Shown here in pieces: positions 2,460 to 62,540 of a stretch of 64,000 bases of DNA. Position 1 is the first letter of the stretch, and each line of letters opens with the position of its first letter. The DNA is from Dehalococcoidia bacterium (GTDB lineage Bacteria; Chloroflexota; Dehalococcoidia; Lucifugimonadales; UBA3495): contig JAJDTP010000025.1 of assembly GCA_022827095.1 (NCBI GenBank), forward strand, positions 1-64,000. Direction: 5' to 3'. Position numbers and translations under genes: made by a program. The notes under the pieces are model-generated. The model made no database searches and was not told the origin of the DNA. It worked only from the letters and a program-made list of their open reading frames with translations.

Positions 2460-5267
2460 ATGACACCAGAACAGAAATCCCGCGTCCAAATTGACGCCCT
2501 GCTTGAGAAAGCCGGGTGGACGGTTCAGGATCCCGACGCCATGAACCTCTACGCGGGCCGCGGTGTAGCCGTGCGGGAGTTCGGTCTGAAACCCGGCCAC
2601 GGCGCCGCCGACTATCTGCTGTACGTCGACCAGAAGGCCGCCGGCGTGGTTGAAGCCAAGCCGTTGGGTCACACCCTCACTGGCGTGGAAACTCAATCTG
2701 GCAAGTATAGCGACGGCTTGCCGGACAACCTGGCCTCCCACCTCAAGCCGCTGCCCTTCCTCTACGAGACCACCGGCTCGGAAACGCGCTTCACCAACCT
2801 GCTCGACCCGGAACCGCGCAGCCGGAACGTTTTCGCCTTCCATACACCTGGAGTACTTGCGGATTGGATAGGGTCCGGTGCGGCGACGGGCCAAGCCGTG
2901 CCGGCCGGCATCGCTGAGCCCAGCGCCGCCTACGCAGCTGCGCCAAACCTGCGCCAGAAGCTCACCGAAATGCCGCCCCTGCACGCGGGGAACCTCTGGC
3001 CGGTGCAGCAGCGGGCCATCGTCAACCTGGAGGACTCGCTGGCGCAGGCGAAGCCTCGGGCGCTGATCCAGATGGCCACCGGCAGCGGCAAGACCTTCAC
3101 CGCCTGCAACCTGGTGTATCGCCTGATTAAGCACGCCGGCGCCAAACGCGTTCTGTTCCTGGTGGACCGCAACAACCTGGGGCGGCAGACCAAGACGGAG
3201 TTCGACGGGTTCCAACCGCCAAACGAGGTGCACAAGTTCAGCGATCTCTACGTCGTTCAGCACATGCAATCGGGAAGAATTGACCCGGTGAGCCGGGTGT
3301 GCATATCCACCATCCAGAGAGTGTATTCCATGCTGCGCGGCGAGGATCTGGACCCGGCGCAGGAGGAAATCTCGGGTTTCGACTACGGCCAGGTCAACCC
3401 CCAGCCGGGCACGGTGGAGTACAACCCCGCCATTCCCATCAGCGAGTTTGACTTCATCATCACCGACGAGTGCCACCGCTCCATCTATAACCTGTGGCGG
3501 CAGGTGCTGGAGTACTTCGATGCCTTCCTGATCGGCCTGACGGCGACCCCGTCGGCGCAGACTTTCGGGTTCTTCCAGCAGAACCTGGTCATGGAGTACA
3601 CCCACGAGGAGGCGGTGGCCGACGGCGTGAACGTGGACTCGGATATCTACCGCATCCGCACCCAGATCACCCAGGAGGGTTCCACCGTCGAGGCTGGGCA
3701 ATATGTCGACCGCAGGGATCGGCAGACCCGCAAGGTACATTGGGAACAACTGGACGAGGACCTGACGTTCACCGCCAATCAGTTGGATCGGGACGTGGTC
3801 GCCGTGGACCAGATCCGCACCGTCATCCGGACCTTCCGCGACCGGCTGTTCACCGAGATATTCCCCGGGCGCACCGAGGCACCCAAGACCATCATCTTCG
3901 CCAAGGACGACAGCCACGCCGACGACATCGTCCGCATCGTCCGGGAGGAGTTCGGCAAGGGCAACGACTTCTGCCGGAAGATCACCTACCGAACCACCGG
4001 TGTGCCGCCCGAACAGCTCATCGCCGCCTTCCGCAACAGCTACAACCCGCGCGTCGTGGTCACCGTGGACATGATTGCCACGGGGACGGACATCAAGCCC
4101 GTTGAGATCGTGTTCTTCATGCGCAACGTGCAGAGCCGCAACTTCTTCGAGCAGATGAAGGGCCGCGGCGTGCGCGTCATCTCTCCCACGGAGTTCAACG
4201 CGGTCACGCCGGACGCGGCGAACAAGGACCGCTTCGTCATCGTGGACGCCGTGGGCGTCACCGAGACGGAGATGTCCGACTCCTACTCGCTGGAACGGGA
4301 ACCCACGGTATCCTTCGGCAGGCTGCTGGACCTGATCGCCATGGGCAGCCGCGAGCCGGACCATCTCTCATCGCTGGCGAGCCGGCTGGCGCGGTTGTCC
4401 CACAAGATTTCGCCCGTGGAGCGTGAGCTCATCGAAACCGCGGCCAAAGGCGTGCCGCTGCAAACCCTCATCACCAACCTGGTTCGGGCCACCGACCCCG
4501 ATGCGGCCATCGAGGCGGCCAAGGATGCCACCGGCCTGGACGAGCCGCCGCCGGAGGCCATCGCCCATGCGGAGGCGCAACTGCGGGAAGCGGCTGCCGT
4601 GCCCTTCGCTTCTAACCCTGAACTTCGTCAACGACTGGAGGCCATCCACCAGTCCCACGAGCAGACCATCGACACTGTCAGCAAGGACGTGGTGTTGGAG
4701 GCCGGGTTCACCGCGGACGCCGCCCGCGACGATGCCCGGTCGTTCCGCCAATTCATCGAGGACAACCGGGACGAGATCACCGCGCTGCAGGTGCTGTACG
4801 AACGGCCCTACCGGCAGCGGTTGCGCTACGACGATATACGCGCGCTGGCCGACACGCTGCAGGCGCCGCCCCGGTCGTGGACGACGGAGCGGCTGTGGCA
4901 GGCGTACCAACGGCTGGACGAGGATCGGGTGCGCGGCTCTGGCCAGCGTCAGTTGGCGGACATCGTCGCGCTGGTGCGCTACGCCATCGGCGACGCCGAG
5001 GAACTGGCCCCCTTCGCCGACCACGTGAACCACAGTTTCGAAGGCTGGTTGGCCATGCAGGAAACCGCCGGCCGCCAGTTCTCCGCCGAGCAACGGCAAT
5101 GGCTGGAGGCCATCCGCGACCACATCGCCGGCAGCGTCAGCATCGAGCCGGGCGACTTTCAGTACGCGCCCTTCAACCAGTGGGGCGGCATCATGGGAGC
5201 CTATACCGTGTTCGGCGAGCAGTTGCAGCCCATCATCGACGAGCTAAACCTGGAGCTGGTGCGGTAG
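2460..5267 (+). CDS. hsdR: Type I restriction enzyme R subunit (nuclease and translocase)
   Basis: A 935-residue HsdR. It would cleave unmodified DNA after ATP-driven translocation, but only when assembled with HsdM and HsdS. The N-terminal PD-(D/E)XK nuclease shows Asp51 in AADYLLY and the E65-x-K67 pair in VVEAKP. The superfamily 2 helicase has Walker A in MATGSGKTFTACN (about residues 204-214), the DECH box at 336-339, TAT motif GLTATPS near 360, and a later helicase motif in KGRGVRVIS. The C-terminal part is a long helical region of the kind that docks on the methylase. The frame is intact and length is normal for the EcoKI-like branch. It is separated from hsdS by three toxin-antitoxin modules, and its hsdM partner is broken, so activity is doubtful. 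Confidence 0.95.
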   Translation: MTPEQKSRVQIDALLEKAGWTVQDPDAMNLYAGRGVAVREFGLKPGHGAADYLLYVDQKAAGVVEAKPLGHTLTGVETQSGKYSDGLPDNLASHLKPLPFLYETTGSETRFTNLLDPEPRSRNVFAFHTPGVLADWIGSGAATGQAVPAGIAEPSAAYAAAPNLRQKLTEMPPLHAGNLWPVQQRAIVNLEDSLAQAKPRALIQMATGSGKTFTACNLVYRLIKHAGAKRVLFLVDRNNLGRQTKTEFDGFQPPNEVHKFSDLYVVQHMQSGRIDPVSRVCISTIQRVYSMLRGEDLDPAQEEISGFDYGQVNPQPGTVEYNPAIPISEFDFIITDECHRSIYNLWRQVLEYFDAFLIGLTATPSAQTFGFFQQNLVMEYTHEEAVADGVNVDSDIYRIRTQITQEGSTVEAGQYVDRRDRQTRKVHWEQLDEDLTFTANQLDRDVVAVDQIRTVIRTFRDRLFTEIFPGRTEAPKTIIFAKDDSHADDIVRIVREEFGKGNDFCRKITYRTTGVPPEQLIAAFRNSYNPRVVVTVDMIATGTDIKPVEIVFFMRNVQSRNFFEQMKGRGVRVISPTEFNAVTPDAANKDRFVIVDAVGVTETEMSDSYSLEREPTVSFGRLLDLIAMGSREPDHLSSLASRLARLSHKISPVERELIETAAKGVPLQTLITNLVRATDPDAAIEAAKDATGLDEPPPEAIAHAEAQLREAAAVPFASNPELRQRLEAIHQSHEQTIDTVSKDVVLEAGFTADAARDDARSFRQFIEDNRDEITALQVLYERPYRQRLRYDDIRALADTLQAPPRSWTTERLWQAYQRLDEDRVRGSGQRQLADIVALVRYAIGDAEELAPFADHVNHSFEGWLAMQETAGRQFSAEQRQWLEAIRDHIAGSVSIEPGDFQYAPFNQWGGIMGAYTVFGEQLQPIIDELNLELVR

Positions 5268-6743: not shown

Positions 6744-7003
6744 TGCATCGGACTGCGCTGGAATTCTGGACTGCTTTCGCGGCTCTTCCCGAATCGGTGC
6801 AGAGGACCGCAAGACGAAATTTCGAGATGCTCAAAGAGGACCCTCGGTATCCGTCCCTCAGGTTCAAAAAAGTCGGCGATTTTTGGGCCGTTCGTGTCGG
6901 GCCTTCTTATCGTGCGCTGGCGCGGGAAAGCGGCGACGATTTTATCTGGGTTTGGATCGGACATCACGACGAGTATGAAAGGTGGATTGCAGGACGAGGG
7001 TAG
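6743..7003 (+). CDS. RelE/ParE-like toxin
   Basis: 86 residues from a GTG start fused to the antitoxin stop. The fold-typical sequence runs ALPESVQRTARRNFEML, YPSLRFKKVGDFWAVRVG, YRALA and ends IWVWIGHHDEYERWI. The GHH.EYER ending is characteristic of RelE-superfamily toxins that act on ribosome-bound mRNA. Its last 29 bases overlap the start of hsdS (ATG 6975), so the module is physically locked into the restriction operon and cannot be cleanly lost without damaging hsdS. Confidence 0.85.
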   Translation: MHRTALEFWTAFAALPESVQRTARRNFEMLKEDPRYPSLRFKKVGDFWAVRVGPSYRALARESGDDFIWVWIGHHDEYERWIAGRG

Positions 7004-8462
7004 CCGCGCCAAACGGTTTGGTCTGCCCGCAGGGTGGGAGGTCGCCGTGTTGGGCGATATTCTTCCCATAAAATACGGTAAGGGGCTTGCCAGCAAAAAC
7101 CGGGTCGAATCTGGATCGGTTCCAGTTTATGGGTCCAGCGGAATCGTCGGAATGCATGACGAGAGCCTAATACCAGGCCCGTCGTTGATAGTCGGGCGCA
7201 AGGGTACAGTTGGTGCGGTTCATTTTAGTAGTGGGCCATCATGGCCAATAGATACTACTTACTACGTCACATCCACACCAGACACCAACCTGCGCTTCTT
7301 TGATTACCTTCTGAGTTCACTCGATTTACGGAATTTGGACAGATCCACGGCTATACCCGGCTTAAGTCGGCCTGATTACGAAGGGATCCACGTTCCCATC
7401 CCTCCCTTCCCCGAGCAGCGGCGCATCGTTGCCGAAATCGAAAAGCAGTTCACGCGGCTGGACGCCTCGGTGGCGGCGCTGCGGCGGGCCCAGGCGAACC
7501 TGAAACGCTACCGGGCCAGCGTACTGCGGGCCGCCTGCTCCGGCGAACTGGCGCCCACGGAGGCAGAACTGGCCCGCGCCGAGGGCCGGGAATACGAGCC
7601 GGCCGACGTCCTGCTGGAGCGCATCCTGGCGCAGCGTCGGGCGCGCTGGGAGTCCCTGGAGAAACGGCGGGGCAAGTACAAGGAGCCGGCCGCGCCCGAT
7701 ACGTCCAACTTGCCGCCGCTGCCCGAGGGGTGGGTGTGGGTGACGGTCGACTCTCTGATCATTGAATCTCTTGCCAACGGCAGATCGGTCAAGACCGCAT
7801 CAGGAGGATTCCCGGTACTGCGGCTAACGGCATTACAGGACGGGCAAATCAACCAGAATGAGTTCAAGACTGGTGCATGGACCGCAGAAGAAGCGAAGCC
7901 ATTTCTAATACAGGAAGGCGACTTTTTTGTTTCACGCGGCAATGGGTCGATCAACTTGGTCGGATTAGGAGGCATCGTCGGGCCTGTGGAAATGCCAGTG
8001 GCATACCCAGATACGTTGATCCGGTTGCGATTACACCCCGAAGTCGTGCTCAATTTCTTCGGGCAAGTGTGGAACTCAGCGACGATCCGGCATCAGGTGG
8101 AATCGACGGCGAGGACCACCGCAGGAATTCATAAGGTCAATCAGCAAGATATATCGATGTGTGTTGTTCCCCTCCCTCCCCTCGCCGAGCAGCAGCGCAT
8201 CGTGGCCGAGGTGGAGCGGCGGCTGTCGGTCATCCAGCAGGCGGAGGCGGTGGTGGAGGCCAGCCTGCAACGGGCCGAGCGGCTGCGCCAGAGCATCCTC
8301 AAACGTGCCTTCGCCGGCGAACTGGCGCCGCAGGACCCCGACGACGAGCCGGCGTCCGTTCTGCTGGAACGCATCCGCGCCCAGCGCGAGGCGGAGCAGA
8401 CGGCGGCGTCCGCCGGCAAGAAACGGCCGGCACGGCGGCGGCGCACGAAAACATCCGCATAG
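6975..8462 (+). CDS. hsdS: Type I restriction-modification specificity subunit
   Basis: 495 residues from ATG 6975. Two target-recognition domains each begin with the family hallmark: LPAGWEVAVLGDI near the N-terminus and LPEGWVWVTVDSLI near residue 250. The central and C-terminal conserved helices (PFPEQRRIVAEIEKQFTRLD and LAEQQRIVAEVERRL) form the spacer that binds two HsdM. A basic tail (KKRPARRRRTKTS) closes the protein. A longer in-frame reading from 6894 exists but lies inside the toxin gene. The subunit looks intact, so the recognition sequence is still encoded even though the methylase is not. It is followed at once by an inverted-repeat element and hsdM. Confidence 0.93.
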   Translation: MKGGLQDEGSRAKRFGLPAGWEVAVLGDILPIKYGKGLASKNRVESGSVPVYGSSGIVGMHDESLIPGPSLIVGRKGTVGAVHFSSGPSWPIDTTYYVTSTPDTNLRFFDYLLSSLDLRNLDRSTAIPGLSRPDYEGIHVPIPPFPEQRRIVAEIEKQFTRLDASVAALRRAQANLKRYRASVLRAACSGELAPTEAELARAEGREYEPADVLLERILAQRRARWESLEKRRGKYKEPAAPDTSNLPPLPEGWVWVTVDSLIIESLANGRSVKTASGGFPVLRLTALQDGQINQNEFKTGAWTAEEAKPFLIQEGDFFVSRGNGSINLVGLGGIVGPVEMPVAYPDTLIRLRLHPEVVLNFFGQVWNSATIRHQVESTARTTAGIHKVNQQDISMCVVPLPPLAEQQRIVAEVERRLSVIQQAEAVVEASLQRAERLRQSILKRAFAGELAPQDPDDEPASVLLERIRAQREAEQTAASAGKKRPARRRRTKTSA

Positions 8463-9698: not shown

Positions 9699-12011
9699 CT
9701 AGCTGACAGTCGGTGGTCCCGCCAACGCTAAGGTCCGACGTACGAAGCCCAAGAGCTCAGTTGGGGTGATGTGTTCAGTCTGCCATGCAGGATTGGTGTC
9801 ATGGTGAAAACGGTTGGCGTATTCAAGGATATTCTCAATCTCTTCGATCGTTTTTTCGTTGATAACTTCATCTGGACCGCCGATCCGTTGGCGGCACTCT
9901 TGAGCGAACGGACCAAGTAGCTTGCCCGGTGGAAATTGTTTGGGGCATGCGACTCGGAAATACCCCTCCAGATAAAAGCGAATCGCCTCCGCCACGTTCC
10001 GGTCAACGCCCGATTGGTCGGTGGCGAATCCGGCGAGAAGGAAATACCGTTGGTCGTGCTCCGTCATGGAGTCTTGAGACGCCTCCCATTCCCGTATGGT
10101 CGATTCATCCCCGTTCGGAGCAATCGCCAACGTAGTGCACTCCTGATGCCGGTTGATGCCATTCAGAATGCCACAGAGGAACCGCTTGTTGTGCGACAGC
10201 ACTATGGTCTGTTTCGCCCGCCGTGATAATGCTCTCACCTGTTGAACCGTGGCCAACGAACGATGGTCGTCCAAACTAGACATGGGATCATCGATCACGA
10301 CCACAGTATCCGCAAGATCGGGGCGGCTATCCAAGGACGAAAAGAAAAGTGCAAGAGCTAACGTGTTTCTGTCGCCGGCGCTGAGTGAGTTTCGAAATGA
10401 CGGTTCACCAGGCGTGTGGGTATTGCCCCTCACCGCGATCGGAGCGTTATTGATCAGCACATTGTACGTACATGTGGAGCCCGTACCCCGACCTAAATTG
10501 ACCGGAGCCAGAGCCCCGATACGAAAACCCGCATTGAAGCGGTCAAGGTAATCGTTTACGCGATCCTGCAGTTGCGGGAAAACATTGGTGCGGTACTCCT
10601 CCAGTGCGTTTCTTGCTTGATCTCTTGCAGTTTCAGTGACCCCCTTGGCGGCTACCTCAGCCAAATAAACGTCGCATAGTGGAGCAATATCATCGCGGAA
10701 GCGCGATTTCGTGGCTTTCAACTTGTTCAACGCCGAGAAAATTTGGTTCGTATCGGCTGTCTGCGCTTGCTGCTTTACCTGTTGGATTATCGAGTTTGTC
10801 GCTTGCAACATTTGGTTGGCGGCTGCCAGTGCCTGTCGGTGACCGTTATAAGCCTCGAGCGAATCAACGGAGGTCTGATTTAGGCTCTGTGGTTCGAGAG
10901 GCGCAGCACTCTTGGCCTGCAGTTGCTCAGCGACGGCTGTTCGCGCTGCGTTCCAGGCATCCACAATTGCGGCTGAATCGATCTCTACGGTCGGGACATT
11001 ACAATAATTAGACCAAAACTGCATCGACTGCGTTAGAGTGCTAACTGCGCTCACGAACTCCACTTGGTTACCGACTGCATGGTTGCGGTTGACGTCGCTG
11101 ATCAGCAAAGAAACGGTCTGTTTCAAGTTTGCGTATTCTTGGCTGAAATACGCCCGATAGTGCGTGATCAGGTCAATACCCTGCATATCCTGGCCACAGA
11201 AAGGGCATATGCTATCGTCTCGTTGCGCTGCCATCTGCACTCCATCAGCAACCCACAACTCTCCCCCTTCTCCTAGCGTCTGGATGTGAACCCGCACCTG
11301 AGCCTCGGCCGATTTATCCAATTGTGCTAGGTCTTTTGTCAGCGTTTCTCTAATGGTCTCGATGTCGAACTCTGGTAGCTCGATACTGGCAATAGTCGAC
11401 GCAGATAGCACCGATTCTTGGTCTTCGGCAGCCAATAAAGCGCGCTCCGCTTCGGCAATCTTTTCATCTACATCCGCCACTTCGGAAAGAGCGCAGAACG
11501 CGTCTACCGACAGCCCAAATCGTTCGTGCTCCGGTATGGCTGCAGCATGCGTAGATATAGCCGTATTGTGATCAGCAACGCGGGAGACATGAGCCTGCAA
11601 CGTGCGGTTGAGCGCAACGCCCCGGTCTCCGAGAATCAATTCGTGCAGATTCTGCCGATGGCTTGAAGCTACATCCAACCCAGAACAGACATTCTCATCT
11701 ACGAAATGGTCGTCGAACACACTCAAATTTCCGAATGTGTGATTCCACGTACCATTCTGAAATATCACATCCGTTGGGATATCAGGCCAACTCAGAACGG
11801 CTTTCGGAGGGTACTGAGAACCGAGTCGACGTCTTTCTGTGATCGGCTCCGGATCACCGCTAGCCAAAGAACGTAGGACCGCCGTCAGGGTGGTTTTCCC
11901 TTGCGCGTTGTCCGCGTAGATTAATGTGAGTTTGCTGAACTCATACGCTGCTCCGGCAGCATCCGAGTTGAACCTACCGATGTTTTGGAGCAATTTGATC
12001 TTTTCAATCAT
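9699..12011 (-). CDS. AAA_13 ATPase with zinc hook (RloC/PrrC-like superfamily)
   Basis: 770-residue SMC/Rad50-like ATPase. Walker A is the degenerate YADNAQGKTTL (about 32-42, with Ala for the first Gly, common in this subfamily). A coiled coil leads to a zinc-hook CPFC (Cys269/Cys272). The signature-like LSAGDRNTLALALFF and Walker B VVVIDDPMSSLDD (Asp573/574) come after the second coil arm, followed by an H-loop (VLSHN) and a C-terminal domain of about 120 residues containing RFYLEGYFR and RFHHDTN. The architecture matches AAA_13 proteins, among which RloC and PrrC are anticodon nucleases, but the catalytic Arg-Glu-His triad was not firmly identified. The start overlaps the truncated helicase by four bases (ATGA), making it the last gene of the minus-strand cassette. 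A defence role is inferred. Confidence 0.85.
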   Translation of the reverse strand: MIEKIKLLQNIGRFNSDAAGAAYEFSKLTLIYADNAQGKTTLTAVLRSLASGDPEPITERRRLGSQYPPKAVLSWPDIPTDVIFQNGTWNHTFGNLSVFDDHFVDENVCSGLDVASSHRQNLHELILGDRGVALNRTLQAHVSRVADHNTAISTHAAAIPEHERFGLSVDAFCALSEVADVDEKIAEAERALLAAEDQESVLSASTIASIELPEFDIETIRETLTKDLAQLDKSAEAQVRVHIQTLGEGGELWVADGVQMAAQRDDSICPFCGQDMQGIDLITHYRAYFSQEYANLKQTVSLLISDVNRNHAVGNQVEFVSAVSTLTQSMQFWSNYCNVPTVEIDSAAIVDAWNAARTAVAEQLQAKSAAPLEPQSLNQTSVDSLEAYNGHRQALAAANQMLQATNSIIQQVKQQAQTADTNQIFSALNKLKATKSRFRDDIAPLCDVYLAEVAAKGVTETARDQARNALEEYRTNVFPQLQDRVNDYLDRFNAGFRIGALAPVNLGRGTGSTCTYNVLINNAPIAVRGNTHTPGEPSFRNSLSAGDRNTLALALFFSSLDSRPDLADTVVVIDDPMSSLDDHRSLATVQQVRALSRRAKQTIVLSHNKRFLCGILNGINRHQECTTLAIAPNGDESTIREWEASQDSMTEHDQRYFLLAGFATDQSGVDRNVAEAIRFYLEGYFRVACPKQFPPGKLLGPFAQECRQRIGGPDEVINEKTIEEIENILEYANRFHHDTNPAWQTEHITPTELLGFVRRTLALAGPPTVS

Positions 12012-13119: not shown

Positions 13120-14319
13120 TTACAGGAGGAGTTCGAGGTTGGTGGCGTCCACGTCCTCTGGCACGGTGCCCAGGTCCGCCTTGTCAAACGATTCGATCAG
13201 GCTACGAAAAGTTCCTGCATTGCTTCCGTCGCCTGGTTTGAGCAGGGCGTCAATCCCAATTCTGGACTTCCTGCCCGACAGCTCCACCATGAATTCCACG
13301 TTCCGTGGGGAACTGCCCAGGGCTGCCGAGGTCGAGTTGCCCGAACCTACCACGAGCCGCGCGTTCCATCCGTCGTCGATGACGAATACCTTCGCGTGCA
13401 ACCCCGCCAGGGGAGGCAGGTCCACGTCGGGATCCTCGGGTTCCAGTTCCAGCGCCGGCTTGAACGCGTAAATCTCGGTGAAAGCCGACAGGGCATCACG
13501 TGGCGCCGTCAGAAGGGACTCACGGCGGCTGATCAGCACCGATCGTGAACGGCGCGTCGCCACCGATCGCAAAAACCCTCCATCCAGAAAGGGAGAGATC
13601 ACCAGGATAGGCCGGCGCTTTGGCTCGAGGAAATCGGGATTGGCACGGCCGAGACCGAATGAGAGAAACTTCTCCAGTCCGAGCCCATCCGGAGGTTGGA
13701 ACCGTACCCGCCGCAACTCATCAGCGCATCGGTTCACGATGTCCTGTTGCGACTCGGACACGGGCTGGCAGGCCAATCCAGGCAACGACCCGAAGAAGTC
13801 GGCCAGCACTCGGTTCTCGCCGAACCCTCTGACCCTGTGCTCCATCAGCTCGCCGTCCAGGACCAACGATGTGTCCCAGGACGCATCGAAAGTCAGGTTG
13901 CGCGACTGGCAAACGAGCCGGTATCGCGTCGGTGCGTCGGGCGCGACATAGCGCAATGCCCATACCTTGGGATGGAACACGGCCTGGGTCTCGTCCACCC
14001 TGGGCGGCAGGCCCGTCACCACGGATTGTTCGAGAAATGCCAGTGCTGGCTGACGTGATCGCGGCACCGATGTTCCGCCGCCATGGCAGAACAGAACGAT
14101 GTTCCCCGCATGGCGGCGGGCGCTTTCTAGGAGCGCCAACGGATCGGTAGCCAGGCGCCCATCTCGATCCTGCGCATCGCGAAACGTAAACGCCAGGGGC
14201 ACCGCCAGCAGCGCCATCAAATCCAGTGTGTAGGTCGTACCGACTGCCAGGTCGAAGGAATAGCCCTCCGGAGGACGAAGGGCGTCCAGGAAAAGCCGTC
14301 GGTGGCCCGGTTCAAGCAT
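13120..14319 (-). CDS. Phospholipase-D-like protein of a helicase-associated cassette
   Basis: 399 residues. Two phospholipase D half-sites are visible: FHPKVWALRY (His116, Lys118) and LHAKVFVIDD (His308, Lys310, Asp315) followed by VVGSGNSTSAAL, the usual downstream Gly/Asn/Ser element. The first half-site lacks the Asp, so one catalytic half may be degenerate. PLD-fold proteins of this sort act as nucleases or are fused to helicases in restriction-like systems (family knowledge). The gene starts inside the stop of the DUF6361 gene (TGATG) and precedes the 199-residue protein, so it sits in a single operon. Confidence 0.82.
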   Translation of the reverse strand: MLEPGHRRLFLDALRPPEGYSFDLAVGTTYTLDLMALLAVPLAFTFRDAQDRDGRLATDPLALLESARRHAGNIVLFCHGGGTSVPRSRQPALAFLEQSVVTGLPPRVDETQAVFHPKVWALRYVAPDAPTRYRLVCQSRNLTFDASWDTSLVLDGELMEHRVRGFGENRVLADFFGSLPGLACQPVSESQQDIVNRCADELRRVRFQPPDGLGLEKFLSFGLGRANPDFLEPKRRPILVISPFLDGGFLRSVATRRSRSVLISRRESLLTAPRDALSAFTEIYAFKPALELEPEDPDVDLPPLAGLHAKVFVIDDGWNARLVVGSGNSTSAALGSSPRNVEFMVELSGRKSRIGIDALLKPGDGSNAGTFRSLIESFDKADLGTVPEDVDATNLELLL

Positions 14320-15560
14320 CAGGGCGCCTTCAAGGGTTCAAGTATGTCGGCAACGATCCGCTGCACCTGGGGCCAGCGGAACGTAAGTCGGCCTGATGAG
14401 GGGTAGCCGGGTTTGGCCTTGAGGGCATCCGGATACGTCAATCGTGCGCGCAGTCCCTTGAGCGCCAGCTCTCTTTCACGGATGCGGAAACGCGCCTCCG
14501 CATTCGCGCCTGGGTCCGTCGGCGGTTGCGCCATCGATATCACCAGGGAGTACCAACGGTCCGCGAAAGCGATCGTGGCTTGGCGAAGCCGTGGGTTCGC
14601 GGTCCGGAGGCGTTGCCACATCGCGACTCGGTCCCATTCCTCTAAATTACGCCGAACGTCCTGAATATCGGCGAACCATCCGGCAAGGTCAGTCGAGATA
14701 CTGCCGCAACGCTCGTCGTCCTCCAATGCCTCAGCCTGCATCAAGTTGTACAAGTGCGCGGCCCCTTGATGAACCAGTGAGAACAACTCTGCATCATGCA
14801 GCCATGCCGCCAGAGCAGGAGGCGTCGCCATAGCGGAGGCGTGAGTCCACGGGTAATCAGCATCGCAAATATCATTTGCATCGGCTTCACGTAGGACGTG
14901 AGCCAAATAGGTTTGGGGATGTTTGAGTTCGATGCTGTCCTGAAGGAATCTCCCCTCCTCGGGGCTCAAATTGAAAGTGGCGTTGTCTGGGAAACCCTCC
15001 GGAGGCGGTGGTAGTTTCGCCCAGCGGCTTGGGGCTCCGTCGGCGGATTCGTAGCGTCGTTCCTCAACTGGGTCGTCCGGCGTCGACATCGCGCGCAACA
15101 ATGTTGATGGCCTACGACGGGCGTCTTGGTGAGAAGGGATGGAACCCGGCTCCCGCCGGATACCCCAGCGTTCGAGCCCCACCCAATAAATTGAACTCGG
15201 CCAGCGCTGTAGGGATTCCCTCGCTTCACGACCTATCACGCCTTCGCCGGCGCCGTGCGCCTTGGACAAGGCGTCGCAGAGCTGCAGTTCCAGCTGACGC
15301 GCCAGTTGGTCGGAATTCGCTCTGGGCCTGGCTTCCACCATCTGCGAAATCCATGGGATGAAAAGAAAGTAACGAGCGCGCGTCTGGATCGTGCTGGTTC
15401 CCGGGAACAGCACGTCGGCGATGGTGTCGCGGATGCTGCCTATTCCGAGTTCATCGAGCGTGCCGGGTTCGTTGAGAGCGGAAACCAGTTCCATGACCGC
15501 TTTGCGTTCGCTCTCGCTGCTGTCCAGCCAGCTAAACGTTGATATGAAATCGGTAGTCAT
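14319..15560 (-). CDS. DUF6361-family protein
   Basis: 413 residues from ATG 15560 (MTTDFISTFSWLDSSESERK). The opening SWLD.S..ER...M.L, the early DELGIGSIRDTIADVLFPGTS and TRARYFLFIPW are hallmarks of DUF6361 proteins, which are of unknown biochemical role and are repeatedly found next to PLD-like and helicase genes. A longer in-frame reading up to 15737 adds no conserved sequence, so 15560 is preferred. It is the first gene of a five-gene minus-strand cassette and probably carries the promoter in the 550-base gap upstream. I infer a defence or DNA-processing role from context only. Confidence 0.85.
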   Translation of the reverse strand: MTTDFISTFSWLDSSESERKAVMELVSALNEPGTLDELGIGSIRDTIADVLFPGTSTIQTRARYFLFIPWISQMVEARPRANSDQLARQLELQLCDALSKAHGAGEGVIGREARESLQRWPSSIYWVGLERWGIRREPGSIPSHQDARRRPSTLLRAMSTPDDPVEERRYESADGAPSRWAKLPPPPEGFPDNATFNLSPEEGRFLQDSIELKHPQTYLAHVLREADANDICDADYPWTHASAMATPPALAAWLHDAELFSLVHQGAAHLYNLMQAEALEDDERCGSISTDLAGWFADIQDVRRNLEEWDRVAMWQRLRTANPRLRQATIAFADRWYSLVISMAQPPTDPGANAEARFRIRERELALKGLRARLTYPDALKAKPGYPSSGRLTFRWPQVQRIVADILEPLKAP

Positions 15561-16109
15561 CTCTGTTCTGCCAGTATTCGCTGATGTCCCTGTTGTCACA
15601 GCCAATTGGCTTCGCGTGCGTCGATTGCAGGGTGTACGTCGCAGTGGGCGGCTAATGTAATTTGCCTCAACATCAGCGTCAAGCAATTGCCCGCCATCGG
15701 CGGACCTGATCGCACGAACTTGATTGAGGCAGCGCAATCTTCCTCGTCGAGAATGTGCGGGGCCTTATGGGTATCTAGCTGGATCCGCAGGACTGCACCC
15801 GTCCACTGTTGCCTATGCTTCCTGGACAGGTGGGCCGGTTACGTAATCGGTTGCCGCCACCGATGCCACCGGGCGGTATAGCTGTGCAAATTCGTTGATG
15901 GCATTGAAACCGCGGTGCCCGCCGACTTGGATGCCCACCCTTTGAAAGAAAATCATCTGGGTAAACTGCCAAATGACACTGTGCGCCCCGCAACGTCATT
16001 GATCTGCCTTCACCATGGGACGCTCTATACGTCGCGCTGTTCAGCAAGCCTTGACCTAACTTCGCAGTCGACACCACAATGGAACGACGCTGAAGCGGGA
16101 GTGAGCTCG
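15561..16109. other. Intergenic stretch upstream of DUF6361 cassette
   Basis: No frame shows recognisable domains. It should hold the leftward promoter of the DUF6361 cassette and the rightward promoter of the small gene at 16110, but no convincing -35/-10 pair stands out. Confidence 0.4.
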
Positions 16110-38394: not shown

Positions 38395-41300
38395 ATGATC
38401 ATCATCCACGCCGCACAACTGGCCGCACAACTGACCCTCTGGGCAGAGGACTCCGAGCAACCCTCGCAGTCCGGCCACGCGCTCGACGGACGCCATCCCC
38501 GTAGCGTCGACGTCAGGAATTTGACGGATGCCGTCGGCGTCTCGCTCGATGAGCCCACCGGCGCCGAGATGGAAGCCACCATCTGGCTGCCCAGCCGAGG
38601 CAACAGCCCACTGCCGTCGGAAGCATTGGCCGGGCCCGCGCCCAGGTCGAGGGCCAAACCCCGCATCAAACCTTGGCGCGTGCCCGTGATCAGCCTTTCC
38701 AGCACTCAAGCCATCGACCTGCTACAACGTTGTCAGAACGGTCGCGTGCTGACGCCCGGCACGGCGCTGGGCCCCGACGTGGCCTACTGGCGACACGTCA
38801 TGCTCTTCGCCGCCGGACTTACCGTTCGGCAGCAGTTCCTGCCCAACGTTATCCCACACAGCGACAGTACCAAGGCCGTGTGGACGCCGCTCTACGTCGG
38901 TGACGACGCCCACCGGTTGGCTGAACTCGCCAGAGCGATGCCGCCGTCGGCCCGAGCCATGACCATCGCCTCGGCGGACCGGCCGCCAAGTACTCCGCCG
39001 CAGGCCGTACTCAAGGAGTTCATCTCCAGCCTCGTGAACCACATCGTTCGTCAGGACGCCCAGGAAGGCACTCGGGAGTTCGACTCGGCGCACGACGCCT
39101 GGCTTCACGCCTTAACGACGACGGACGGCGCGATACACGCCGCCAACGCCCAACTGCAACAACTGCGTCGGCAGGTGGCGGAATGGCATCGGCCCATCGC
39201 CGTAGCGGCTAACTCCCCCTACCGGCTGTGCCTCAGGCTGGAAGAGCCGCCGGAACCTGACGAGGACGACCCACCAGCCGCTCTGCGCGAACAGGACTGG
39301 TACCTGCGCTACCTGCTCCAGCCCCACGACGACCATAGCCTCCTCCTGCCCGTCAACGACGTACAGGAGTGGCTGTCGCCGGATTTCAACCCGACTGAGT
39401 TCCTGATCGCCTCCCTGGCCCAAGCCGGATCCGTATGCCCGCCCATCTCCGACACCCTGAACAAGCGAAGCCCGTCCGGCGCGCCGCTCGATGCTGAACA
39501 GGCTCACCAGTTCCTGACCCAACAAGCGGCTGCGTTACAGCAGGCCGGCTTCGGCGTGATGCTGCCCTCGTGGTGGACCCGCCGGGGCACAAAGAACCGT
39601 CCCACCATCCGGGCCCAAGTCCGCACTCCGCCGATGCAGGGCGGCGCCAACATGACGATGGCGTCGCTCATCGATCTGAACGTGCAGGTCGCCATGGGCG
39701 ACGAGGTAATCGAAGCCGAGGAACTGTTCGAACTGGCTGACCTGAAGGTGCCGCTGGTCCGCTTCCGCGGCCAGTGGGTCGAAATCGACGCCGACGAGAT
39801 CCGAGCCGCCGCCGACTTCTGGCGCAACCGCGACCAGCTCACCCTGCGGGAAGCGGTCCGCATCGGGTTGGGCGCCGACCAACAGGCGGAAGCCGACAAC
39901 GTCTCCCTGGCGACCACGGGCTGGCTCAGCGAGCTGCTGGAATCCCTCCAGCAGAAGAGCCAGATACGGCTGCTGGACACGCCGGCCGCATTCCACGGCG
40001 AACTCCGCCCCTACCAGCAGATGGGTTACTCGTGGCTCGATTTTCTCCGCTGGTGGGGACTGGGCGCCTGCCTGGCCGACGACATGGGCCTCGGCAAGAC
40101 CATACAGACCCTGGCCGCCATCCTGCGGGACCACCAGGAGGGCAACGAGAAGCCCAATCTGCTGGTCTGCCCCACCTCGGTGATCAACAACTGGCAGCGC
40201 GAAACGCAGAAGTTCACGCCCAGCCTGACGGTGATGCCGCACCACGGACCTGGCCGCGAGCGTGGCGAAAGGTTTACCCAGCAGGCCGCCAAGCACCAGA
40301 TCGTCATCACCAGCTACGGCACCATGACGCGGGACCGGGAACTGCTGGCTTCCGTCGATTGGCGGTCCGTCACCGTCGATGAGGCGCAAAACATCAAGAA
40401 CCCCGTCACCCGACAGGCCCAGGCGGCACGCTCCCTGCCCGCAGACTACCGCATCGCCCTCACGGGCACGCCGGTCGAAAACCACGTCGGCGACCTGTGG
40501 GCCATCATGCAGTTCCTGAACCCCGGCCTGCTTGGCTCCCAGGCGGAGTTCAAGCGCCGGTACTTCACCCCCATCCAGGCCAAGCGGGATGACGAAGCGA
40601 CCGCGCGGTTGCAGAAGGCGACCGGCCCGTTCATCCTGCGCCGCCTGAAGACGGATCCCACCATCATCGACGATCTGCCCGACAAGCGCGAGACCAAGCA
40701 GTATTGCAACCTCACCCGCGAGCAGGTCACCCTGTACGAAGCCGTGCTGCGCGACGTTGAAACACGGCTGGAGGGCGCCGAAGGCATGGCGCGACGCGGC
40801 TCCATCCTCGACACGCTGGTCAGGCTGAAGCAGGTCTGCAACCACCCCCGCCAGCTTTTGGGCGACAACTCCGCCATCGCCGGCCGCTCCGGCAAGCTGG
40901 CCCGCCTGGAAGAACTACTGGACGAGATCATCCCCGCCGGCGACCGGGTGCTGATTTTCAGCCAGTTCGCCGAGATGGGAGCCATACTACAGAAGCACGT
41001 CCAGGAAACCTACGGCATCGAAACGCCCATGCTCCACGGCGGCGTGTCACGGAAGAACCGAGACCTCATGGTGGACCGCTTCCAGAACGACCCCAACGGC
41101 CCGCAGGTGTTCGTCTTGTCGCTGAAGGCCGGCGGTTCCGGCCTGAACCTCCCTCGGGCCAACCACGTCATCCACTATGACCGCTGGTGGAACCCGGCCG
41201 TCGAAAACCAAGCCACCGACCGGGCCTTCCGCATCGGTCAGACGAAGGATGTCCAGGTCCACAAGATGATCTGCGCCGGCACGCTTGAAGACCGCATCGA

Positions 41301-41430
41301 CCTGATGATCGAGACCAAGCAGCAGACCGCCGACCAGGTGGTGGGAGCCACCTCAGAACGCTGGCTCACCGAGCTCTCGAACACCGAATTGCGGGAGGTG
41401 CTGGCACTCAGCACCAAGCCGGAAGACTGA
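38395..41430 (+). CDS. SNF2-family helicase (HelZ/RapA-like architecture)
   Basis: 1011 residues. The N-terminal half (about 1-520) is the SNF2-associated region common to bacterial helicases paired with SWIM proteins. The ATPase core follows: Walker A CLADDMGLGKTIQTLAA (Lys568), motif Ia LLVCPTSVINNW, DEAQ box (from Asp662) in VTVDEAQNIKN, motif III LTGTPVENHVGDLW. The second RecA domain has LIFSQFAEMG, FVLSLKAGGSGLNL and DRAFRIGQTK, the SNF2 motifs V and VI. Such proteins translocate on double-stranded DNA and remodel bound complexes. A SWIM-domain gene follows 44 bases later and the RNA-repair pair comes next on the same strand. Confidence 0.93.
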   Translation: MIIIHAAQLAAQLTLWAEDSEQPSQSGHALDGRHPRSVDVRNLTDAVGVSLDEPTGAEMEATIWLPSRGNSPLPSEALAGPAPRSRAKPRIKPWRVPVISLSSTQAIDLLQRCQNGRVLTPGTALGPDVAYWRHVMLFAAGLTVRQQFLPNVIPHSDSTKAVWTPLYVGDDAHRLAELARAMPPSARAMTIASADRPPSTPPQAVLKEFISSLVNHIVRQDAQEGTREFDSAHDAWLHALTTTDGAIHAANAQLQQLRRQVAEWHRPIAVAANSPYRLCLRLEEPPEPDEDDPPAALREQDWYLRYLLQPHDDHSLLLPVNDVQEWLSPDFNPTEFLIASLAQAGSVCPPISDTLNKRSPSGAPLDAEQAHQFLTQQAAALQQAGFGVMLPSWWTRRGTKNRPTIRAQVRTPPMQGGANMTMASLIDLNVQVAMGDEVIEAEELFELADLKVPLVRFRGQWVEIDADEIRAAADFWRNRDQLTLREAVRIGLGADQQAEADNVSLATTGWLSELLESLQQKSQIRLLDTPAAFHGELRPYQQMGYSWLDFLRWWGLGACLADDMGLGKTIQTLAAILRDHQEGNEKPNLLVCPTSVINNWQRETQKFTPSLTVMPHHGPGRERGERFTQQAAKHQIVITSYGTMTRDRELLASVDWRSVTVDEAQNIKNPVTRQAQAARSLPADYRIALTGTPVENHVGDLWAIMQFLNPGLLGSQAEFKRRYFTPIQAKRDDEATARLQKATGPFILRRLKTDPTIIDDLPDKRETKQYCNLTREQVTLYEAVLRDVETRLEGAEGMARRGSILDTLVRLKQVCNHPRQLLGDNSAIAGRSGKLARLEELLDEIIPAGDRVLIFSQFAEMGAILQKHVQETYGIETPMLHGGVSRKNRDLMVDRFQNDPNGPQVFVLSLKAGGSGLNLPRANHVIHYDRWWNPAVENQATDRAFRIGQTKDVQVHKMICAGTLEDRIDLMIETKQQTADQVVGATSERWLTELSNTELREVLALSTKPED

Positions 41431-56605: not shown

Positions 56606-57160
56606 TTAGCGCCTCCCTGGCGACGGGGTCGTATTGAGGGTCAAGGTCGATTTGGAGAAGCCCTTGGGTTGTTGGTCCTGTCGGCGGAGCGACCACATCC
56701 CGTGCCAGTAAGAGATGGCTTCGACCAGTTCCTGGTCGAGCGGCTCGCCCAATGGTACCCCGTAGCTATCTATGGAGTATTGTTCCCTGGTGGACGTCAG
56801 CTTGAAGAGTTCAGGCGGTTCCGGTCGGCCGTCGGCAGGTGGATGGTAAAACGTTACGACGTCAATGTCGTAGGGCCTGGGCTCTTTGCCGGGACGTGGT
56901 CTGGCTTCGACGTTTTCGACGAAGCTGCCGTCCAGCCATTGGAAACCCTGCGTGATGCCAGCGTCGTACAGAGCCCTTCTGTAGTCCAATAGGCCATGGA
57001 GCAATTGAACGCGGCTCGACGTGGTTGCGAAGCGGTCGATGACGTCGTTGATGGTGGTCAGGTAGGGAGAGCGGTACTCGATCTCGCTTTGCCGTTCAGG
57101 TGGCACGTCGTCGCGCACGGGTGGGATGACGGCCTGATTGTTCCAGTCCGGTATCTTCAC
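56606..57160 (-). CDS. DUF6932 / minimal nucleotidyltransferase-like protein
   Basis: 184 residues. The helical N-terminus leads into FQWLDGSFVENVEARP, where Gly78-Ser79 form the GS motif, and PRPYDIDVVTFYHPPA, where Asp98 and Asp100 form the metal-binding pair. This GS...DxD arrangement is that of the pol-beta nucleotidyltransferase superfamily, and the surrounding sequence matches DUF6932. Enzymes of this fold act as toxins, antitoxins or Abi components by adding nucleotides to RNA or protein. The gene starts a two-gene operon with the 310-residue protein. Confidence 0.75.
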   Translation of the reverse strand: MKIPDWNNQAVIPPVRDDVPPERQSEIEYRSPYLTTINDVIDRFATTSSRVQLLHGLLDYRRALYDAGITQGFQWLDGSFVENVEARPRPGKEPRPYDIDVVTFYHPPADGRPEPPELFKLTSTREQYSIDSYGVPLGEPLDQELVEAISYWHGMWSLRRQDQQPKGFSKSTLTLNTTPSPGRR

Positions 57161-57303: not shown

Positions 57304-60300
57304 TCACTGCGGCCTTCGGCGCTTCTCGGCGCAGTCAGGGCAGAGGGTTTTCCCAGGGACCGTGAGGTTCTTGCAGTCCCGGCAGATGCCGAGTTCCTTG
57401 CGTCGCTCGCGTCGGGCGACGAGGTTGGCGCGCGCGTTCCTTGCGCTCTTCAGGCGTTAGCTTGGCGCCCTTGGATTTTCGGGTGGTGGCACGCTTCGGC
57501 TTTGGGGCCGGTTCGATTTCAGCTGGCCGGCTGGCCGAAGACGTCTGCCGTTTCTTGGATTGGTCGGGCTTGGCCGAGCCGTAGCGCTTGTTCGTGATGA
57601 CCTGGAAGTTGAACTCGTACTCGAAGGTACTGCCTACCGCCCACGTGTGGGGGGAACCGAATACTCTCTCATAGACCAACCTTGCCAGCTCACACACCTC
57701 GTGAGGATCCTGGCTCCGCATAGCGACGCCATAAGCTACCGCGTACACCCGCTCCGTGACGTAAGGGTCGTCAGCATTAGCGAATCTCTCCACCAATCGT
57801 ACAGCGGAGTGAATTCGGCCCGTGAGCAACGACACCAGCGCTTTGGTTGCATTGTCGCGAAGGAACCGGTTGGGGGTGGTCAGCATCCAAGCCAAACTGG
57901 TCGCAGTAAGGTCGACCACCGCCGGTTCCAGAGCATCGTCCGACGAAACGCCAAGGGCCCAATCCACCAGTCGTTCAACCGGCCCGTTATCTCCCCACGC
58001 ACGGTGCAGGTACGTACTCCACCACATATCCCGATCAGGCATGGTATCTTGACGCAGCCTGCGGTCCAGAAACTCCGCATTGAACGGGTGTCCAGCGATG
58101 GTTGACACGGTCAGCCAAGTATCGACCGGCTCTTCACTTATGGCCCCACTAACCATCAGCCGCTTCAACACTTCCGTGGCGTCGTCGGAGAATGCATCCA
58201 GGCGTCGCCAGACCACGCTCTCCAAAAATAGCTCGCCAATATCGAGGTAGTCGACAAGTTCTGGCGCTACCTCCAATAATTCTCTACCGGTCCGCTCCGG
58301 TACCTGGATGCACAATGCTTCGACCAGCCCGAGGTGTTTGCCACACCAGTCTTCTTTCAGGAACGCCAACTGGCCGCCGGCTCCGAACGCGTTCTCAAGG
58401 GCACGATCAGTCGGCAGGTCCCTCAAAAGAGAATCAGCGACGATGTGGTCCGCAAAGCGCTCGTATCCGATGAAGACAACCTCATCATCAGGATCGTCGG
58501 ACATTTGGTCCAAGTCCGCGACCAAAGCTCCGGATGTGATCAGTCCAAAGTACAGGGATCTGCTGTAATCTCGTCCGGGAAGCAGTTCGTTCGCCAGCTG
58601 CACCGCTCCCGCCCGGGGCAGCCACCTCTGCCTGGTTTCCAGAAATTGTCGGGCGATGCTGTTCAGAGCCCCGCGAACCAAGTTGTCCTGGGGATTGTAA
58701 TCAAGCGTCTCCGCCAACTGCTTGTTCACGGCATCCAGATACAGGTCGAATGCCGACGTGATCCCGTGAAAGCCCCTTGGAAGCCTCGTGTGCCCGTTGC
58801 GACTCAATCCTTCGCAGATTGTCTTCAGGTAGAGGGGGTTGCGATATTCGGGGTGCAGCACTGGCGCTGACGGGAACTCGAGACCGTAGTGGGCAAAGAA
58901 AGTCCGGGTCGCATCGTATTCGTAGCCCTCAAAACCGAGGTGGGTTACGGACGTCGCCCGTTCCCTGATCCGCTCGGTGAGAACCACTTTCTCGTAGGCG
59001 GTACGGACCGAGAGCACGACCCCGATCCACTCCGATTTTTCCAGGGGGGCCAGAAATGCCTCCAGGTGATTCCACCAGACGTCCCGGCCTCGCCCTTCGT
59101 TCAAGGCGTCAATTATCACCAATGCCCGCGAGTTGGCGGCCTGCGCGGCGGCTTCCAACGCGCCCACGAATTGTTCGGCCTGATCGCCGTGCATATCCAC
59201 CTGTCGTAGGACTTGTCCCCATGGTTCAGCGGCTTCGGTGAAACGTTGCCCCATGAGCAGAATGCATGGGACACCGCCCTCCACACGACTGCTGGCAAAA
59301 TCGCACAGCAGGTGAGTCTTGCCGGTTCCGGCTGCTCCATTCACAATCAACAGCCGGCTGTTTACGAATTCGGACGCTTCGACCAGACGATACCGCGCTT
59401 CGGCAAGTCCACGTCCGAGACTGGAAAAGGAACGCGCCAGCTGGACCTGTGGACTTTCCCCGTATCGGGGATTCCACCCATCCCGCCGCCGCCGCGCGTC
59501 ATATTCGCGCCCCATCTCATATAGACCACTCACAATTTCATCAACCATCGATTCCGCAGTCGCGAGTTGGTCCGCGATCACCGACAGGAGAATTGCCCCC
59601 TCTGGGGCTGCCTCCAGCGCAGCAAACCGACCCAAGACATCGTCAGTTGCCGAGACAGCCGCGTCCAGAGCAAAACCCCTCAGCAACTCCCGTTCTGAGC
59701 CGCCCGGGCGGCGCAGAGACTGCAGCCTCCGCCTGATCTCTACGGCATGGGATTTCAGGCGGTCAATGGCAACTTGGGTCCGTCCAAATTGTTCCAGATG
59801 TTGGCCAACGTCCAACTCGACGTGAAGCTCTGGTGTGTACCTGGGGCCGGCAGTGCGAATTGCCTCATCGAGACGGTTTTCAAGCCACAACCGGTCGAAA
59901 CCCTTTTTGCCGAACCAGAAATACAGGCGACCCATGTGCTGTGGACGAGACAGCCGCTCCCTCAGCTCGGATGATCCCCACCAGACGAATTCAACGTCCA
60001 TGCCGCGCTCTTGCGTCCAGGCTTTCCATTTCACCACATGCTGGTCCCACCGTTCCAAGGCCGAAGTCCGCCCTTCCAGGCGAGCGTCGGCACGGTCGAT
60101 GGGTAGACAGACGAAGTAACGGATCAGCTTGGGATGCTTGTCGAGGGCAGTGCGGACGGACTCGTCGATCTGCGACCAGCTCGAGTTGCGTAGTTCGCGG
60201 AAGTACTTGGCCTGCCAACCCCATTCGCTCCCGTCCGGCAATATGCAAAAGCATTCAACCCCGGCATCGGGGGCTCCCTTCCTCACGAATCTGGCATTGA

Positions 60301-60403
60301 TTGGACTTTCCGACCGCGCCAGTTGCGCGCACAACTCTTCGAAACCCGCAGACTGGGACCCGTCCAATGATCGTATGCCCGCCCAATCAACGCTTGTCAT
60401 CAC
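57304..60403 (-). CDS. Avs-like STAND NTPase with N-terminal nuclease and zinc-ribbon tail
   Basis: About 1030 residues. N-terminal Mrr/PD-(D/E)XK-like nuclease: ELCAQLAR, Asp46 in GAPDAGVE and Gln64-x-Lys66 in WGWQAKYF. A helical linker is followed by a STAND P-loop: Walker A LIVNGAAGTGKTHLL (Lys near 362), Walker B ALVIIDALNEGRG (Asp432, a STAND hallmark), sensor VVLSVRTAYEK, then a helical C-terminal region. The last part as open frame ends at 57335 after LTPEERKERARQ; one base shift near 57437 gives a far better ending with a zinc ribbon, CRDCKNLTVPGKTLCPDC, to stop 57304. Avs proteins sense phage proteins through the C-terminal region and fire the nuclease. This one is shorter than known Avs2/Avs4 and its sensor is unlike TPR arrays I can recognise. 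Confidence 0.8.
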
Positions 60404-60715: not shown

Positions 60716-61876
60716 GTGAAAACCATGGTCGCCGAACGTGACAATTCCACCCCTCTCGGTACCTCCAAAGGGATGCTTGCAGACGGACTAGGCTACGTTT
60801 CCGTAAAGGGCTTCAAGAGCCTCCGGTCAATCGAGAACATCGAGATTGGGCCAGTAACTGCCATCGTCGGCGCCAACGGCTCGGGAAAGTCGAACTTCAT
60901 CGAGGTTTTCTCCTTCCTGGAAGCCCTACGGGAAGGCCGAATGATGGAATACGTCGTCACCGCCGGACGCGCCACCCGATTGCTGCACCATGGCCCTTGG
61001 ATAACACAATCTCTACAGTTGGAGATCGGTTTAGCCAGTGGTCTGTTTTTCTACCGAATTGAACTGGCGCCCACGTCCGACGATTTGTTAGTGATCAGAT
61101 CGGAGGAGTTTAGAGCCGGCGAAGCAAGGGAGTGGAGTAGCGCGAAGACGCAAGGACTAGAGGCTGCAATACGCCGGGAGGTGCACTGGCGTCAAGAATT
61201 CCACGAACAGATGGTGAAGCTGTTCGACGGGCACCGGATATACCATTTTTCGGACACTGGGCCGCACTCGCCCATGAAAACAACGCCGGCTTTGCACGAC
61301 AATCGCCATCTGCGATCAGATGGCGCCAATGTTGCGGCATTTCTTTACCTACTACAACAGCGTCGTCCAGATTCGTATCGCGGCATCGTCAATGCCATCC
61401 GGCTAGTGGCGCCGTTCTTTGTTGACTTTGACCTGGAACCCGATCGGCTGAACCCCAACCAAATTCGCCTGCGCTGGAAGCACGTCGGCGGAGACAACTA
61501 CTTTGATGTTTCCTCGCTATCCGACGGAACGCTTCGCTTCATAGCTCTTGCAACGTTGCTTTTGCAACCCGTTGAGTACCGGCCAGCTACGGTCATAGTG
61601 GACGAGCCGGAACTTGGGCTACATCCCCACGCCATTGCGGTGCTGGGCGCGTTAATCCGCCAGGCGTCGGTGGAGACCAGGGTGATCGTCGCCACACAAT
61701 CCTCACTGCTGGTGGACCAATTCGAGCCGGTGGACATACTAGTAGCAGAGCGGACGGAAGGCGCCACGGAGCTCCGACGTTTGGACGTATCCGAACTGGC
61801 CGTGTGGCTGGAAGACTACAGCCTAGGCCAATTGTGGGAAAAGAACATACTGGGCGGACGGCCAGTCCCTGAGTAG
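60716..61876 (+). CDS. AAA ATPase (AAA_21/OLD-like) of an ATPase-TOPRIM pair
   Basis: 386 residues from GTG 60716, 383 from ATG 60725, or shorter from ATG 60774, which follows CCAAAGGG. The ABC-type core starts YVSVKGFKSLRSIENIEIGP; Walker A is IVGANGSGKSNF (Lys58). The signature region SSLSDGTLRFIALATLL, Walker B TVIVDEPELGLHPHA and the D/H-loop VIVATQSSLLVDQF follow. This is the predicted-ATPase architecture that pairs with TOPRIM nucleases in OLD-, Gabija- and PARIS-type defence. The DUF4276 gene starts four bases after its stop. Confidence 0.88.
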   Translation: MKTMVAERDNSTPLGTSKGMLADGLGYVSVKGFKSLRSIENIEIGPVTAIVGANGSGKSNFIEVFSFLEALREGRMMEYVVTAGRATRLLHHGPWITQSLQLEIGLASGLFFYRIELAPTSDDLLVIRSEEFRAGEAREWSSAKTQGLEAAIRREVHWRQEFHEQMVKLFDGHRIYHFSDTGPHSPMKTTPALHDNRHLRSDGANVAAFLYLLQQRRPDSYRGIVNAIRLVAPFFVDFDLEPDRLNPNQIRLRWKHVGGDNYFDVSSLSDGTLRFIALATLLLQPVEYRPATVIVDEPELGLHPHAIAVLGALIRQASVETRVIVATQSSLLVDQFEPVDILVAERTEGATELRRLDVSELAVWLEDYSLGQLWEKNILGGRPVPE

Positions 61877-61880
61877 CCGC

Positions 61881-62540
61881 ATGACACGGCTGATAATTTT
61901 GGCGGAAGGTCCCACCGAGGTGAGTTTCGTCGACCGTGTGCTGGGACCTCATTTGTATGGTGCTGGCCACATCGAGGTTCGTCCCGTTCTCATGGGAGAA
62001 CGCGGCGGCGTTTCCAAGTGGGCCCCAGTCCGACGGGAGATTCTGAACTACCTGAAGCAGAGTCCGGACATTTACGTGACCACCATGGTCGACTATTCCG
62101 GAATGCCGCAATCATGGCCCGGCCGACGGGAAGTCGCCGGGACACGAACCGTCGCCGAAAAAGCCAACCAAGTGAAGCAGGCCATGCTGACTTGTATCGT
62201 CAGGGCGCTGGAAAACTTCCATCCCGTCCGCTTCATCCCCAATGTGATTATGCACGAGTTCGAGGGATTGCTCTTCAGCAACCCGGACGCTCTCGCTGGT
62301 GCTATCGGCCGTCCCGATCTAGCACAACGGCTTCAGAGTATCGTAGACGAATGTGGATCCCCCGAGGAGATCAACTCCTCCTACGATACTTTCCCTTCTC
62401 GGCGACTGAAAGGAGTAGACCCACGATACCAGAAGGTGCTCCACGGCACTGAAGCCGCTCGGCAAATCGGCCTGGCGACAATGCGTTCCCAATGTCCTTT
62501 GTTCGACCAGTGGGTCAGCAAACTCGAACGTGCGGCGTGA
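61881..62540 (+). CDS. DUF4276 TOPRIM-like protein
   Basis: 219 residues. TOPRIM features: Glu9 in ILAEGPTEVSFVDRVL and the DxxG-like motif at Asp71 in TTMVDYSGMP. Family-specific segments are MHEFEGLLFSNPDALAGAI, INSSYDTFPSRRLKG and a terminal KVLHGTEAARQIGLATMRSQ, which define DUF4276. Paired with the AAA ATPase just upstream, it resembles ATPase-sensor plus TOPRIM-nuclease defence modules such as PARIS, but uses a different TOPRIM family. The paired architecture is known from many genomes; its activity is inferred. Confidence 0.88.
   Translation: MTRLIILAEGPTEVSFVDRVLGPHLYGAGHIEVRPVLMGERGGVSKWAPVRREILNYLKQSPDIYVTTMVDYSGMPQSWPGRREVAGTRTVAEKANQVKQAMLTCIVRALENFHPVRFIPNVIMHEFEGLLFSNPDALAGAIGRPDLAQRLQSIVDECGSPEEINSSYDTFPSRRLKGVDPRYQKVLHGTEAARQIGLATMRSQCPLFDQWVSKLERAA

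Follow-up and report, generated by a model that had tools for sequence, protein, structure and literature searches.

Among the described Avs (AVAST) systems, Avs2 is the closest counterpart of the gene reported here. According to PMC12724215, the large terminase subunit is the target sensed by Avs1-3, and in Escherichia coli Avs2 the C-terminal sensor domain binds the target, which leads to ATP-dependent oligomerization and effector activation (citing Gao et al.). The nuclease effectors of Avs1-4 cleave both phage and host DNA (PMC12931631). In PaAvs5-1, the loss of C-terminal residues 812-828 alone abolishes immunity (PMC12931631).

The window, i.e. the whole 64,000-nucleotide stretch of a Dehalococcoidia bacterium contig that was analysed, contains one ORF of this kind. 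Its location, proposed in a first-pass annotation, was confirmed: it lies on the minus strand at 57335-60403 and encodes 1021 amino acids from an ATG at 60400, preceded by a ribosome-binding-like sequence (AAGGAGAG), to a stop at 57335. The nuclease residues previously numbered 46/64/66, counted from a GTG one codon upstream, correspond to D45, E49, and Q63-x-K65 in our numbering, and the GAAGTGKT and IIDALNEG motifs were both found in the translation, at residues 355-362 and 429-436. The features of the locus are as follows.

59906..60400, minus strand: N-terminal PD-(D/E)xK-type nuclease domain, residues 1-165 (D45, E49, Q63, K65)
59315..59338, minus strand: Walker A motif GAAGTGKT, residues 355-362 (translation and conservation)
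59093..59116, minus strand: Walker B motif IIDALNEG, residues 429-436 (translation and conservation)
58601..59893, minus strand: STAND/NACHT-like NTPase region, residues about 170-600
57659..60400, minus strand: Avs2-derived core, residues 1-914 (PADLOC, 80 relatives aligning within residues 1-919, AlphaFold)
57644..57660, minus strand: junction between Avs2 homology and ribbon-element homology, the latter beginning at CCCACACGTGGGCGG (relatives and DNA alignment with two copies in a sister genome)
57304..57655, minus strand: copy of an unrelated small ribbon-protein gene, comprising a leader (HTWAVGSTFEYEF...), a Lys/Pro linker, and a Cys4 ribbon, with an internal frame change
57307..57435, minus strand: Cys4 ribbon CRDC...CPDC, outside the Avs2 frame

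Sequence profiles and structural models together indicate that residues 1-914 are of Avs2 type by descent. The PADLOC Avs2 model (PDLC02164) matched ORF residues 2-916 over model positions 2-912 of 1504 with 1037 bits, covering the effector and STAND regions. The NCBIfam Avs2 model (NF041813) matched residues 181-916 with 758.7 bits, a score below its curated cut-off of 1000 bits, and 578 model positions were left beyond the match. The closest solved structure by sequence was also an Avs2 (9o4e), with residues 172-920 of the ORF aligned to residues 169-911 of 1484. The remaining matches were weaker: NCBIfam Avs4 gave a weak match to the nuclease domain (residues 15-95), Pfam searches with the whole protein returned only AAA_22/NACHT matches under the curated cut-off, in the NTPase region, and the nuclease domain used alone as a query gave no sequence match in PDB. 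Both the N-terminal effector with its PD-(D/E)xK catalytic motif and the STAND NTPase with Walker A and B motifs, which membership in Avs2 requires, are present and intact, and ten positions (D45, E49, Q63, K65, G355, G358, G360, K361, D431, and A432) are invariant across an alignment of 46 relatives. The earlier proposal of an Avs-type immune protein that carries a nuclease at its N-terminus is thus supported by the profiles, 9o4e, and the relatives, and the protein can be named more precisely as Avs2-type by descent.

The AlphaFold model of the ORF (mean pLDDT 83.8, pTM 0.81) is confident up to residue ~916, with pLDDT values mostly of 80-95 up to residue 910, and has no confident structure in the tail (pLDDT <50 for residues 917-1021). 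The nuclease domain is predicted to follow the order H16-31, E37-40, E50-53, E59-64, H72-88, and E92-98 (H, helix; E, strand). The best structural match was Avs4 (8dgf), aligned from residue 1 (Foldseek E-value 3.8e-9; Z-score 16.0, rmsd 10.0 A across 482 aligned residues). Next came AAA+ and NLR proteins, NLRP3 and NOD2 among them. Among the structural matches listed there was no Avs2 chain, 9o4e having been found by sequence only.

The C-terminal sensor region of ~455-650 residues that belongs to Avs2 is absent after residue 916. From 85,000 species genomes, 80 relatives were retrieved, distributed over many bacterial phyla and two archaea, and in nearly all of them similarity to the ORF ends at residues ~914-919 or earlier, with every intact relative running 455-650 residues past this end point. 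Likewise, every Avs2 match to a profile or a PDB entry stops at residues 915-920, although the models extend to 1317-1576. At the junction, 41 relatives have a conserved continuation, mostly PPPHILLRDYARG (VFxxGxPPPHILLRDYARG), whereas the ORF reads VFGSPHTWAVGSTFEYEF at the same point, i.e. VF and then GSP/H in place of the conserved continuation. Past the junction, 45 relatives share 54 columns with a conservation of 90% or more, of which the ORF has kept only 3. The possibility that the sensor had been relocated within the genome was rejected, because the C-terminal 617 residues of the homologue from the same genus, used as a query, found no match in any contig. Other breaks were seen at 10 of the 80 Avs2 loci (L049, L061, L070, L083, L096, L101, L105, L118, L121, and L122). 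Disruption is thus not unusual in this family, although some of these ten may be assembly errors. Another broken Avs2 start is found in a genome of the same genus (G009, C33:95791-96334; L014/L018), in which residues 1-60 and 42-181 are in different frames with no further match beyond them, and which adjoins ORFs resembling a transposase by eye.

What follows residue 914 has a different origin. Residues 914-979 match two Avs2-free loci of G012, a sister genome from the same genus, one at C78:8884-9236 and the other, containing the leader only, at C46:29242-29391. The DNA match to these copies starts abruptly at CCCACACGTGGGCGG, where Avs2 homology stops, and upstream of it the sequences of the three loci are unrelated; AT skew shifts at the same place, being about 0 before it and -0.3 within the tail. 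The ORF is therefore composite. The Lys/Pro-rich linker noted in the first-pass annotation does lie in the tail of the Avs2-derived ORF. The Cys4 ribbon that the annotation had taken for the C-terminus of the protein (ARANLVARRERRKELGICRDCKNLTVPGKTLCPDCAEKRRRPQ, 57307-57435, minus strand) is encoded in another reading frame, and the Avs2 frame as sequenced terminates at ...EPHGPWENPLP* without it. The ribbon matches the C78 copy of the sister genome and a second locus in the window's own genome (G000, C20:14654-14761). The C78 copy has a frame change between leader and linker and a TAA within the ribbon, and the C20 copy has a frame change ahead of the ribbon and, again, a TAA within it. All three ribbon-holding copies, including the tail in the window, thus contain frame changes, at differing places, and such breakage accounts for the position of the Cys4 ribbon outside the Avs2 frame. 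A programmed frameshift in the tail was considered and rejected, since the C78 and C20 copies shift elsewhere or in the opposite direction and also carry stops. The frame change near 57437 may be a sequencing error, in which case the ribbon would be in frame; even so, the fusion would gain only the ribbon and the Avs2 sensor would remain missing.

Intact ribbon proteins are encoded by separate ORFs, mostly of 135-253 amino acids, in four genomes of the window's genus and family (G001, G004, G011, and G022; L026-L034). These basic proteins combine one to three CxxC...CxxC ribbons with a short hydrophobic leader, and in seven ribbons of this protein family all four Cys residues are invariant. 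The ribbon profile had no match elsewhere in 294 evenly sampled genomes of the class, and among the genomes searched the proteins occur only in the taxonomic family of the window. No trusted Pfam family matched the ribbon, and no match was found in phage or plasmid records. From the matches in the sister genome and C20, the breaks in these copies, the intact ORFs in relatives, and the restricted range, we conclude that the tail, a copy of a small ribbon-protein gene restricted to this lineage, has decayed and belongs to no Avs group. The first 22 bp of the tail (allowing up to three mismatches) occur once in this genome and twice in the sister genome, with weak matches in three others; these counts give no hint of an abundant repeat, and a dispersed repeat or the end of a mobile element was rejected. 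At one locus in a further genome (L129; G002, C97:7337-7358), in otherwise unrelated surroundings, an ATG is followed by a close match to the motif that opens the tail (MSPHKWAVGTTFE).

The Avs2 remnant is located in a defence-rich region, in a genome for which the closest relatives with a name are Dehalococcoidia (Chloroflexota). Divergent from it, at 60716-62540 on the plus strand, is a candidate two-gene defence system consisting of an AAA_21 ATPase (HEC-01A, 414 bits) and a DUF4276 protein (HEC-01B, 231 bits). Directly downstream, at 56606-57160 on the minus strand, is a DUF6932 protein with a PDC-M63A match. Elsewhere in the window are a type I restriction enzyme and a specificity subunit (2460-5267 and 6894-8462), a PDC-S06 match (9699-12011), ZacB-like (13120-14319, covering only positions 1-373 of a 586-position model) and ZacA-like (14319-15737) genes, and a ZorD/DpdE-like helicase (38395-41430).

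We consider it very probable that the ORF is a 3'-truncated, sensor-less, and probably inactive Avs2. Its ancestor would have been a full-length Avs2 of about 1,530 residues with a nuclease, a STAND NTPase, and a C-terminal sensor. Recombination or deletion may then have joined codon ~914 to the unrelated ribbon-gene copy, with the loss of the last ~600 codons, and the frame would have stayed open by chance (1 in 3) for ~107 further codons of leader and linker before ending past the frame change. Intact Avs2 would sense the phage terminase with its C-terminal region, oligomerize with ATP, and fire the nuclease. By analogy with the PaAvs5-1 deletion, Avs5 being another Avs family, and with C-terminal sensing in Avs2, the short protein should not be triggerable, and the gene has probably become inactive recently. 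The core contains no stop and deviates at 3 of 88 near-invariant columns (mostly 0-5 in other relatives), and its end branch is ordinary in length (0.41 versus a median of 0.51). The lack of excess unusual substitutions suggests that the sensor was probably lost recently; the same observation, together with the absence of stops, counts against a dead gene, since either decay has not begun or the short protein is still used and under selection.

A working fusion, in which a short Avs2 and a new tail form an immune protein with altered sensing and the ribbon or basic tail would sense something, or restrain the protein, in place of the lost domain, draws on a frame that is open for about 107 codons, on core motifs that are intact and apparently constrained, and on the intact ribbon ORFs of relatives, which imply that the ribbon module can function by itself. 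We regard such a fusion as highly unlikely, as the ribbon is out of frame in the window, the same element is broken in C78 of the sister genome and C20 of this one, conserved C-terminal columns have been lost, 105 tail residues have no confident predicted structure, and no Avs2-ribbon fusion was found among the 80 relatives or about 200 related genomes. Equally doubtful is continued immune activity of the short Avs2 without its distal sensor, mediated by the unstructured basic tail, or by the ribbon should the frame change prove to be a sequencing error. The chance that the junction was created in assembly, the true genome having a full-length Avs2, is also small, if slightly better. The assembly, which is of the metagenome type, comprises 35 contigs with contamination estimated at 4.24%, and the frame change is close to the junction; against this, the leader DNA is single-copy in the genome (up to three mismatches), leaving no repeat on which an assembler could mis-join, the C-terminal part of Avs2 is absent from all contigs, and the same genus harbours the family to which the tail belongs. 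Least probable of all is a retained role of the short form in regulation or as a decoy, through co-assembly with other STAND proteins or through their inhibition. The constraint signature of the core would suit this role, but recent truncation accounts for the same signature, and there is no second Avs2 in the genome (one match in G000).

Because the ORF descends from Avs2 but lacks the C-terminal sensor that defines it, we file it as a truncated Avs2-derived gene, neither a working Avs2 nor a new class. A new sensor class with a zinc-ribbon tail, as suggested by the first-pass annotation, finds no support, the ribbon being out of frame and the architecture recurring in none of the 80 relatives and about 200 related genomes. 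Profile matches to a known Avs group, named in advance as evidence against such a class, were obtained for part of the protein: residues up to 916 are matched as the N-terminal two thirds of Avs2, whereas the rest falls in no Avs group. The truncated Avs2 provides a tidy example of the loss of a bacterial NLR-like immune gene, with the effector and switch intact and the sensor replaced by part of an unrelated gene, and cautions that a short 'new architecture' seen in one genome can be a truncation. Were the short protein active, Avs2 would be triggerable without its distal sensor region.

Compared with known systems, the ORF shares with Avs2 (AVAST type 2; PDLC02164, NF041813, and 9o4e) residues 2-916, equivalent to the first ~912 of 1504, including the nuclease and STAND motifs, but is without about 600 C-terminal residues and has about 106 unrelated residues instead. 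The full-length Avs2 of the same genus (G011, L038/L045; a 1577-codon ORF) is its sister in the tree with 53% identity in the core, and differs in continuing with LLRDYARG... for 602 residues past the junction point. Avs4 (8dgf) is the best structural match of the model and shows a weak sequence match in the nuclease domain, but it is only distantly similar in sequence and, according to PMC12724215, senses the portal protein rather than the terminase. The standalone Cys4 ribbon ORFs share four invariant Cys residues, a basic linker, and a short hydrophobic leader with the tail in the window; unlike the tail, they are separate and intact, some contain two or three ribbons, and they are not joined to Avs2.
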